NCBI RefSeq assembly: GCF_000292915.1
Contig: NC_018513.1
Coordinates: 2,604,001 to 2,668,000, forward strand
DNA: 64,000 nucleotides
Direction of reading: 5' to 3'
Source of the DNA: Burkholderia cepacia GG4
GTDB lineage: Bacteria > Pseudomonadota > Gammaproteobacteria > Burkholderiales > Burkholderiaceae
The position numbers and the translations under genes were made by a program. A model generated the notes under the pieces. The model did no database searches and was not told the DNA's origin. It saw only the letters and a list, made by a program, of their open reading frames with translations. Positions 824 through 3,213 of the stretch are shown piece after piece. The number at the start of each line of letters is the position of its first letter. Within the stretch, counting starts at the first letter, position 1.

Positions 824-1630
824 TCAGGCCGCGTGCGTGCCGGAAAGCGCCGCGAGCGCCGGCGGCTTCACGTCGTCCGTCAGCACCTCGAAGCCCTGCT
901 CCGTCACCACCACCATGTGCTCCCATTGCGCGGACAGCGAATGGTCCTTCGTGACGACCGTCCAGCCATCCGCCAGCACGCGCGTGTCGCGCTTGCCTGC
1001 GTTCAGCATCGGCTCGATCGTGAAGATCATCCCCGGCCGCAGCGGCACGCCGGTGCCCGGGCGGCCGTAGTGCAGCACCTGCGGCTCGTCGTGGTACACG
1101 TCGCCGATGCCGTGCCCGCAGTACTCGCGGACCACGCTGAACCCTTCGCGATGCGCGACCTGCTGGATCGCATAGCCGACGTCGCCGAGCGTCGCGCCCG
1201 GACGAACCGCGCGGATGCCGGCATGCATCGCCTCATAGGTCGTCGCGACGAGGCGCCGGGCCAGTTCGCCCGGCTCGCCGACGAAGTACATGCGGCTCGT
1301 GTCGCCGAACCAGCCGTCCTTGATCACCGCGATGTCGAGATTCACGATGTCGCCGTCGCGCATCGGCCGCGACGACGGAATGCCGTGACAGACCACGTGG
1401 TTGACCGACGTGCACAGCGTCTTCGGATAGCCGTGATAACCGATGTTCGCCGGAATCGCGCCGAGTTCGTCGACGATGTATTCACGGCAGCGCGCATCGA
1501 GCTCGTCGGTGGTGACGCCCGGCCTCACGTGCTCGGTGATCATCGTCAGCACCTGGGACGCGAGCTTCGCTGCCTCGCGCGACTTGGCGATTTCCGCGTC
1601 GCCGCGGATCGGGATTTCGCGCTTCGCCAT
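824..1630 (-). CDS. map: Type I methionine aminopeptidase, coupled to a ParD-like gene
   Basis: This 268-residue protein is a complete type I methionine aminopeptidase (E. coli Map has 264 residues). It removes N-terminal methionine from new proteins. All five metal ligands are visible: D99, D110, H173, E206 and E237. H82 (CHGIP) and H180 are also present. The start codon ATG (1628-1630) overlaps the stop of the upstream ParD-like gene as TAATG, so translation is probably coupled. The usual Burkholderia housekeeping map lies beside rpsB, with no sign of that context here. I infer that this is a second copy tied to the small regulator rather than the main enzyme. Confidence 0.9.
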   Translation of the reverse strand: MAKREIPIRGDAEIAKSREAAKLASQVLTMITEHVRPGVTTDELDARCREYIVDELGAIPANIGYHGYPKTLCTSVNHVVCHGIPSSRPMRDGDIVNLDIAVIKDGWFGDTSRMYFVGEPGELARRLVATTYEAMHAGIRAVRPGATLGDVGYAIQQVAHREGFSVVREYCGHGIGDVYHDEPQVLHYGRPGTGVPLRPGMIFTIEPMLNAGKRDTRVLADGWTVVTKDHSLSAQWEHMVVVTEQGFEVLTDDVKPPALAALSGTHAA

Positions 1631-1863
1631 TACGCCACCTGCTCGATGCCGTGGGCCACCGACTCCGTCGGACCCGCGTCGCCGCGTGCCTCGGCCTCGA
1701 TCAGCATCCGGCAGATGTCGCCGTACGACACCGACGGATTGAGTTCCGCCAGCATCCCGACGCGCAGCCAGTGCTCCGCCTGAGCATTGATCGAGCGGCT
1801 CAATGCGGTACTGGTCGAGCGGAGCCGTTCGTGCATCTGCTCGGATATCTTGATGATTCCCAT
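1630..1863 (-). CDS. ParD-like antitoxin-family protein
   Basis: This 77-residue protein has an N-terminal ribbon-helix-helix-like segment (MGIIKISEQMHERLRSTSTALSRSINAQ) shown here in parts: MGIIKISEQMHERL then SRSINAQAEHW. It continues with the longer helical tail of the ParD-like family (Pfam ParD_like). The family name comes from type II antitoxins, but no RelE/ParE-like toxin is next to it. The only partner is the downstream methionine aminopeptidase gene, whose ATG overlaps this stop codon. An inverted repeat and a plausible promoter lie directly upstream, which suggests autoregulation. The antitoxin role is inferred from family naming only. Confidence 0.75.
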   Translation of the reverse strand: MGIIKISEQMHERLRSTSTALSRSINAQAEHWLRVGMLAELNPSVSYGDICRMLIEAEARGDAGPTESVAHGIEQVA

Positions 1864-1877
1864 ATGTCTCTAATTAA

Positions 1878-1897
1878 ACGAAATATAGCTGTTTCGT
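1878..1897. promoter_or_regulatory. Perfect inverted repeat, candidate operator of the ParD-like/map operon
   Basis: ACGAAA (1878-1883) and TTTCGT (1892-1897) form a perfect 6-bp inverted repeat around an 8-base centre. It begins 15 bases upstream of the ParD-like start codon and lies immediately downstream of a candidate -10 element. That is the usual position of an autoregulatory ribbon-helix-helix operator. Binding itself is inferred. Confidence 0.45.
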
Positions 1898-1926
1898 ATA
1901 TTACGCTCGACCCACGCGCCGGGCAA
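1898..1926 (-). promoter_or_regulatory. Candidate promoter of the ParD-like/map operon
   Basis: On the minus strand, TTGCCC (1926-1921) and TAATAT (1903-1898) are separated by exactly 17 bases; each matches 4 of 6 consensus sigma-70 positions. The predicted start, near 1891, falls inside the inverted repeat at 1878-1897. Confidence 0.4.
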
Positions 1927-2011: not shown

Positions 2012-2668
2012 ATGCAAGAATCGATCAACGCCCCTGCCGACGACACCGGCATCAACGAACGCATCGCCCGGCGCGTGCGCGACTTGCGCACCCTGAGAGG
2101 CTACACGCTCGATGCGCTCGCCGCGCGTTCCGGCGTCAGCCGTTCGATGATCTCGCTCATCGAGCGTGCGTCGGCGAGCCCGACGGCCGTCGTGCTCGAC
2201 AAGCTCGCGGCGGGCCTCGGCGTGTCGCTGGCCGGGCTGTTCGGCGGCGATCGCGACGACGCACCCGCGCAACCGCTGGTGCGGCGCGCACAGCAGGCGG
2301 AATGGCGCGATCCGGCGTCCGGTTATGTGCGGCGCAATCTGTCGCCGCCCGGCTGGCCGTCCCCGATCCAGCTGGTCGAGGTCGATTTTCCGCCCGGCGC
2401 GCGCGTCGCGTACGACTCGGGCGGGCGCGAAAGCGCACTGCATCAGCAGGTATGGGTCGTCCACGGGCGCGTCGACGTCACGTTCGGCGACCAGCTTCAC
2501 GAACTTCACGAAGGCGACTGTCTGGCCATGCGGCTCGATCAGCCGCTGATCTTCAGCAACCCGTCGTCGCACGTCGCGCGCTACGTCGTCGCGATCTGCG
2601 ATGCATCCGCCGCCGGCGCGCGGCAAGTGTCATCCGTTCAAAGCCGACCGGCGCAGGAGCCCGTATGA
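2012..2668 (+). CDS. XRE-family regulator with C-terminal cupin domain
   Basis: This 218-residue protein has a lambda-repressor-type helix-turn-helix at about residues 15-70 (LRGYTLDALAARSGVSRSM) and a cupin sensor domain at about 110-190, with HQQVWVVHGRVDVTFGD. Proteins of this layout are one-component regulators that sense small ligands. ATG 2012 is preferred because the longer TTG start at 1973 coincides with a -35 box. The gene overlaps the next gene by 4 bases (ATGA), so the regulator probably controls its own operon with the acetyltransferase. It is divergent from the ParD-like/map operon. Confidence 0.85.
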   Translation: MQESINAPADDTGINERIARRVRDLRTLRGYTLDALAARSGVSRSMISLIERASASPTAVVLDKLAAGLGVSLAGLFGGDRDDAPAQPLVRRAQQAEWRDPASGYVRRNLSPPGWPSPIQLVEVDFPPGARVAYDSGGRESALHQQVWVVHGRVDVTFGDQLHELHEGDCLAMRLDQPLIFSNPSSHVARYVVAICDASAAGARQVSSVQSRPAQEPV

Positions 2669-3213
2669 ATTCCCCGAAACAGCGCGACGACGTGCGCCTG
2701 ATCGATTGCAGCGAGGCCGAGCATGCCGCGGCCATCCTCGAGATCCTGAACGATGCGATCGTGAACTCGACCGCGCTGTACGACTACCGGCCGCGCCCGC
2801 CGGAAGCGATGGTCACGTGGTTCGCGACCAAGCGCGCCGGCGGTTTTCCGGTCGTCGGCGCGGTGGATGAATCGGGCACGCTGGTCGGCTTCGCGAGTTG
2901 GGGCACGTTCCGCGCGTTCCCGGCGTTCAAGTACACGGTCGAGCACAGCGTCTACGTGCACCGCGATCATCGCGGCCGCGGGCTCGGCGAGTTGCTGCTG
3001 CGCGAGTTGATCCGGCGTGCGCGCGAAGCCGACGTGCACGTGCTGGTCGGCTGCATCGACGCGACCAACGGCGGCAGCGTCGGGCTGCACACGCGGCTCG
3101 GCTTCGTGCACTCGGGAACGATCACCGAAGCGGGCTTCAAGTTCGGCCGCTGGCTCGATGCGGCGTTCTATCAGCTCAGGCTCGACACGCCGGCGCAGCC
3201 GGTCGACGGCTGA
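2665..3213 (+). CDS. GNAT-family N-acetyltransferase (phosphinothricin acetyltransferase-like)
   Basis: This 182-residue GNAT enzyme transfers acetyl groups from acetyl-CoA. The acetyl-CoA loop reads HRDHRGRGLGELLL, and the following CIDATNGGSVGLHTRLGF block is typical of the phosphinothricin/methionine-sulfone acetyltransferase (Pat/MddA) subgroup. The ATG at 2665 overlaps the upstream regulator stop (ATGA), and AGGAG lies at 2655-2659. The natural substrate cannot be told from sequence. The fused regulator-enzyme arrangement suggests induction by the substrate or a related amino acid analogue. Confidence 0.85.
   Translation: MNSPKQRDDVRLIDCSEAEHAAAILEILNDAIVNSTALYDYRPRPPEAMVTWFATKRAGGFPVVGAVDESGTLVGFASWGTFRAFPAFKYTVEHSVYVHRDHRGRGLGELLLRELIRRAREADVHVLVGCIDATNGGSVGLHTRLGFVHSGTITEAGFKFGRWLDAAFYQLRLDTPAQPVDG

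Follow-up and report, generated by a model that had tools for sequence, protein, structure and literature searches.

Two genes on the minus strand make up the locus described here, which lies in a 64-kb stretch of DNA (the whole stretch analysed, called the window below). The upstream gene (1630..1863) encodes a ParD_like protein of 77 aa with the N-terminus MGIIKISEQ, residues 1-62 of which match the profile PF11903 with a score of 95.8 bits (cut-off 23); in a genome-wide profile search this ORF was the only PF11903 match in the genome. The downstream gene (824..1630) specifies a type I methionine aminopeptidase (MetAP) of 268 aa, of what is called type B below, which matches the equivalog TIGR00500 with 306.9 bits (cut-off 171.35). 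The stop codon of the first gene and the start codon of the second have one base in common in the sequence TAATG (1628..1632, minus strand). ORFs, strands, coordinates and overlap are all as given in the original prediction, which had also described the enzyme as a full-length second MetAP with all metal ligands. The residues aligned to D97, D108, H171, E204, E235, H79 and H178 of E. coli MetAP are indeed present; we take the first five to be the metal ligands of the E. coli enzyme. The genome contains two MetAPs, and the window copy is 60 % identical to the product of the main map gene. The latter was located at G000:C1:1548676-1549455, between two genes that, to judge from their translations, are presumably rpsB and glnD.

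As had been claimed, the ParD_like gene has no toxin gene beside it: the flanking ORFs that were scanned encode GAF, HTH-cupin, and GNAT proteins, and where a type II toxin-antitoxin system would have an adjacent toxin gene, the partner ORF specifies a MetAP. The GAF-domain ORF (210-713) is located tail to tail with the MetAP gene and presumably resembles a free-methionine sulfoxide reductase. An HTH-cupin regulator gene followed by that of a GNAT acetyltransferase, which does not reach the cut-offs of either the ArsN1 or the phosphinothricin family, occupies positions 2012-3213. A general link with free-methionine sulfoxide reductase was considered and rejected, as GAF, HTH, and GNAT genes are neighbors of the pair in only nine of the 80 named loci introduced below, all of them from Burkholderia.

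The two genes had been predicted to be preceded by a perfect inverted repeat located just downstream of a promoter. The repeat (1878-1897, ACGAAA-N8-TTTCGT) does have perfect arms, but these are only 6 bp long and the window contains 68 repeats of this geometry, so that the repeat by itself is at chance level. It is enclosed in a predicted palindromic operator of 26 bp, TATACGAAACAGCTATATTTCGTTTA (1875..1900, minus strand), identified with the position weight matrix (PWM) described below and ending 11 nt before the ATG of the ParD_like gene. The promoter elements are present as a -35-like hexamer TTGCCC (1921..1926) and a -10-like hexamer TAATAT (1898..1903), both on the minus strand and separated by a spacer of 17 nt, but TTGCCC is a weak match and the promoter was absent from the output of a consensus scan. 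The enclosing operator does not lie strictly downstream of the promoter, as it overlaps the -10-like hexamer at its edge by 3 bp. Such an overlap would be expected of the site of a steric repressor, and a conserved palindrome over the -10 region is also what the autoregulatory operator of a type II toxin-antitoxin system would look like.

In a sample of 299 Pseudomonadota genomes drawn across the phylum, PF11903 was matched 85 times in 79 genomes. Thirty-five of these matches, in 35 genomes, lie at most 122 nt upstream of a MetAP gene on the same strand (the distance being that between the PF11903 match and the MetAP match) and are called linked here; the other 50 have no MetAP gene nearby. 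The pair is present in the class to which the window belongs as well as in other classes, and is thus not confined to close relatives. The gene order is fixed, the ParD_like gene preceding the MetAP gene in all 35 adjacent cases and always sharing its strand, and a candidate MetAP start codon overlaps the end of the ParD_like gene by 1-20 nt in 26 of them. All 35 linked genomes carry at least two MetAPs, against six of the 264 others (E ≤ 1e-45; Fisher p 8e-40, for genomes that are not independent of each other). MetAPs were searched in the 79 PF11903 genomes and then in all 299, with at most eight candidates scored per genome, so that some second copies may have escaped notice; in G060, the first of these searches revealed an additional, weak match (144 bits). 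The six exceptions (G206, G240, G008, G189, G201, and G226) contain no PF11903 match, and BLAST revealed no ParD_like gene just upstream of either of their map genes. As these six genomes possess two MetAPs without a ParD_like gene beside the second map, the regulator is dispensable. Within the genus of the window, PF11903 was matched in 55 of 65 genomes. Three of these (G495, G515, and G535) contain a shorter match of about 70 bits, covering profile positions 1-51, which resembles the type A loci discussed below by profile range alone; in the first two it represents an additional copy.

Of at least 590 relatives present in a named collection, the 80 nearest to the protein of the window were retained, a choice that makes them lean towards the window's own type. 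A MetAP gene directly follows the ParD_like gene in 78 of these 80 loci. In L181, the end of the contig falls inside the MetAP gene, while neither a MetAP gene nor an operator was found in the 6.2 kb of sequence examined for L167 (Verticiella), which is likely to be a rearranged locus and in which the protein keeps the usual Met-Gly-Leu start. The pair is also plasmid-borne: 162 PLSDB records contain a match to the ParD protein, and in all seven records inspected map adjoins the ParD_like gene, once in divergent orientation. The operator score is at least 15 in six of the seven and 14.8 in the seventh (L205). The pair resides, for instance, on a conjugative IncFII/IncR plasmid of Klebsiella pneumoniae (L204) and, in L205, on an Acinetobacter baumannii plasmid with an OXA-58 gene some 1.6 kb away. 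A phage origin was rejected, the ParD protein of the window being unmatched in 50,697 phage records (E ≤ 1e-4).

A motif search in the 120 nt upstream of the 35 linked ParD_like starts revealed the 26-bp palindrome, with the consensus TATACGAa.CaTATAcG.ttCgTATA and a total score of 1085, compared to 303-337 in five base shuffles. A PWM was built from 34 sites, that of the window included and that of L015 (score 4.6) left out. In the window, it scores 31.6 at position 1875, the next best value in the 64 kb being 3.2. Upstream of ParD, 77 of the 80 named loci reach a score of at least 15 (the others being L159 with 5.0, L165 with 14.7, and L167 with -5.8), while none of 3740 control tiles taken from these loci does so (maximum 11.9). 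The other MetAP genes of the 35 linked genomes (36 loci) score 2.2 at best. Among the linked loci, the operator is weak or missing in L015, L036, L159, L165, and L205. One of the 15 unlinked ParD loci (L048) has a site, with a score of 20.3, some 0.6 kb beyond the point where the ParD match starts, which counts against full specificity of the operator. Of 38 genomes, 32 have a match to the consensus at the locus when up to three mismatches are allowed (all except G000, G270, G082, G121, G139, and G294), and a reversed control pattern was matched once in the 38, in G121. A wider regulon was considered and rejected: the window's own operator variant has a single site in its genome at up to three mismatches, and the consensus has only three off-locus sites in the 38 genomes (in G294, G050, and G310). 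An operator-like site with a score of 17 is located upstream of a type A MetAP gene without a ParD_like gene in G226 (L099, about 1432-1457), where either the regulator has been lost or another protein is in control.

Four loci were found in which the ParD_like and map genes are divergent with an operator in between. In L208, from a Sulfitobacter plasmid, the two genes are back to back and the intervening operator scores 37.5. The other three came from one further family, of which 199 genomes were scanned and eight contained PF11903. Three of these eight have a protein with the linked-type start (L209, L210, and L212), all divergent from map, with operators scoring 37.1, 28.6, and 39.2, respectively, and with two MetAPs in each genome. 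Of the other five, two were examined for MetAP and had one each.

The linked ParD_like proteins form one clade, with a support of 98/95 in a tree containing all 15 unlinked sequences retrieved (of the 50) and of 100/100 when two long unlinked sequences were omitted and the four divergent proteins added. The ORF downstream of the unlinked gene was scanned in nine cases: seven encode ParE-like toxins (PF15781), one a zeta toxin, and one a P-loop protein below the Pfam cut-offs. The latter two follow the ParD_like genes of L051 and L041, respectively, where no ParE is found. Since unlinked ParD_like genes mostly precede ParE-like toxin genes, MetAP fills the slot of the toxin. The N-terminus of the linked proteins is fixed in length and starts with Met-Gly-Ile in all 35 linked and all four divergent loci, and with Met-Gly-Ile or Met-Gly-Leu in all 80 named loci (the first codon was taken as GTG in L033 and presumed to be GTG in seven of the 80). 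None of the 15 unlinked proteins has Gly in the aligned Gly2 column, as read by eye; most of them do have a small second residue, and that of L039 may start with Met-Gly-Met. The invariant residues of the ParD_like proteins are kept over great distances, while the C-terminal part of the linked ones is poorly conserved. No solved structure resembling the protein by sequence was found in the PDB (best E 0.78); the putative ribbon-helix-helix fold is therefore taken from the family name and the sequence pattern.

At least two lineages are represented among the linked MetAPs. Type A (25 enzymes) groups with the MetAP of G226 on a deep branch (100/100), and type B (10 enzymes, that of the window included; 99/80) falls among housekeeping-like enzymes, starred branches separating the two. 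The four enzymes of the divergent loci (type C) are sister to housekeeping enzymes of other genomes (100/99). A single origin of types A, B, and C was rejected (AU p 1.5e-171), while a common clade of A and B alone, apart from the other enzymes, was not (p 0.135 and 0.086); an AU p of 5.4e-05 was set aside because the exception rows, one of which is nested in type A, had counted as outsiders. D99, D110, H173, E206, E237, and H82 are invariant in 103 aligned MetAPs (type C excluded), and by this alignment the predicted catalytic residues of a type I MetAP are intact. All 25 type A enzymes have Q65, N73, M179, A109, and E103, where the 56 other enzymes have Y (100 %), C (100 %), F (84 %), G (100 %), and I (91 %), respectively, and all ten of type B have A101 (T in 98 % of the others) and Y179. 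Positions 65, 73, and 179 align with Y62, C70, and F177 of the E. coli enzyme (chain numbering), which we take to be residues of the methionine pocket. The altered residues at pocket positions suggest that the second MetAP is specialized and not merely redundant.

Taken together, we consider it probable (about 0.8) that a clade of former antitoxins serves as an autorepressor dedicated to a conditional second MetAP. The ParD_like clade would have left toxin-antitoxin life and bind the 26-bp operator overlapping the -10 region of its own promoter. Bound protein would hold down expression of the parD-like/map operon or, in the divergent loci, from the promoters of both genes; upon relief of repression the spare MetAP would add capacity for N-terminal methionine excision, probably at times when the housekeeping enzyme is not sufficient. 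We infer DNA binding, repression, and the inducing condition. The original prediction of an autoregulated two-gene module is supported by the wide linkage, the phylum-wide operator, and the divergent version in which the operator is kept. Of the two activities it allowed for the small protein, repression is favored over direct binding to the enzyme, as the partner MetAPs differ in lineage, the C-terminus of ParD is poorly conserved, and the divergent layout preserves only the shared DNA site.

The pair could instead be a true toxin-antitoxin system, with the second MetAP as a toxin that ParD_like binds and inhibits and with a complex that autoregulates. The family is the same as that of antitoxins with a ParE partner, gene order is identical with short overlaps, and some copies are on plasmids. 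Yet the enzyme has its catalytic residues intact as in a normal cellular enzyme, the antitoxin-first operon is broken in the divergent loci, and MetAPs of at least two lineages argue against a matched pair. Type II antitoxins usually bind their toxin through the C-terminal part, precisely the part that is poorly conserved here, and we regard such a system as very unlikely. That a selfish or decaying antitoxin came by chance to lie upstream of a laterally moved map gene would fit the plasmid carriage and the retention in G226 of MetAP and operator-like site without ParD_like. Such a relic is extremely improbable in view of residues invariant over great distances, an operator shared by 77 of the 80 named loci, and a linkage that survives changes of orientation and of MetAP lineage.

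The autorepressor reading is compatible with a refinement, to which we give a rather low probability, in which MetAP cleaves the Met-Gly-Ile start of ParD_like and only the processed form represses, so that a drop in total MetAP activity would derepress the spare enzyme. Expression of the reserve MetAP would then be set by the balance between the processed and the unprocessed form of the repressor, and the Gly2 exposed by MetAP would lie within the predicted DNA-reading strand. Gly2 is present in all linked, named, and divergent loci at an N-terminus of fixed length and in none of the unlinked proteins at the aligned column; the regulated enzyme is the very one able to process this N-terminus, and a system that responds to activity, and not to a surface, would be compatible with MetAPs of interchangeable lineage. 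Against this, Gly2 and Ile3 may be mere DNA contacts or serve strand packing, and MetAP acts on many bacterial proteins whose second residue is small, as it is in most unlinked proteins, that of L039 with its possible Met-Gly-Met among them.

The autorepressor system proposed here shares with PF11903/PF15781 pairs the antitoxin family, the small upstream gene, and the short overlap, but its partner is a metalloenzyme instead of a ParE-like toxin, and the linked proteins have their own clade, fixed Met-Gly-Ile/Leu N-terminus, and operator. The enzyme belongs to the same family as the housekeeping type I MetAP encoded beside rpsB and has the same metal ligands; it differs in being a second copy with its own regulator and, in lineage A, in having Q, N, and M for Y, C, and mostly F. 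CopG and MetJ are autogenous ribbon-helix-helix repressors, small proteins with palindromic repeats over the promoter. ParD_like resembles them, as they are generally described, in size and in the palindrome over its promoter, but is dedicated to a MetAP, and nothing seen suggests a small-molecule ligand. Among the matches listed, no account of the pair was found in the open-access literature: nothing on it was found in PMC11481867, PMC11340326, or PMC13083405, and PMC3948609 is an unrelated relBE paper.

In many proteobacteria, proteins annotated as ParD-like antitoxins are probably regulators of a reserve MetAP instead, and an antitoxin family would have turned into an enzyme regulator while retaining the genomic slot of the toxin. 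MetAP is an antibacterial drug target, and a second copy that is under regulation and has changes at pocket positions might be of importance during metal starvation, under oxidative stress, or in the presence of natural MetAP inhibitors. The system also offers a ready test of bacterial sensing of N-terminal methionine excision; if the sensor reading were true, the cell would gauge an essential co-translational activity via the N-terminus of the repressor that controls the gene.
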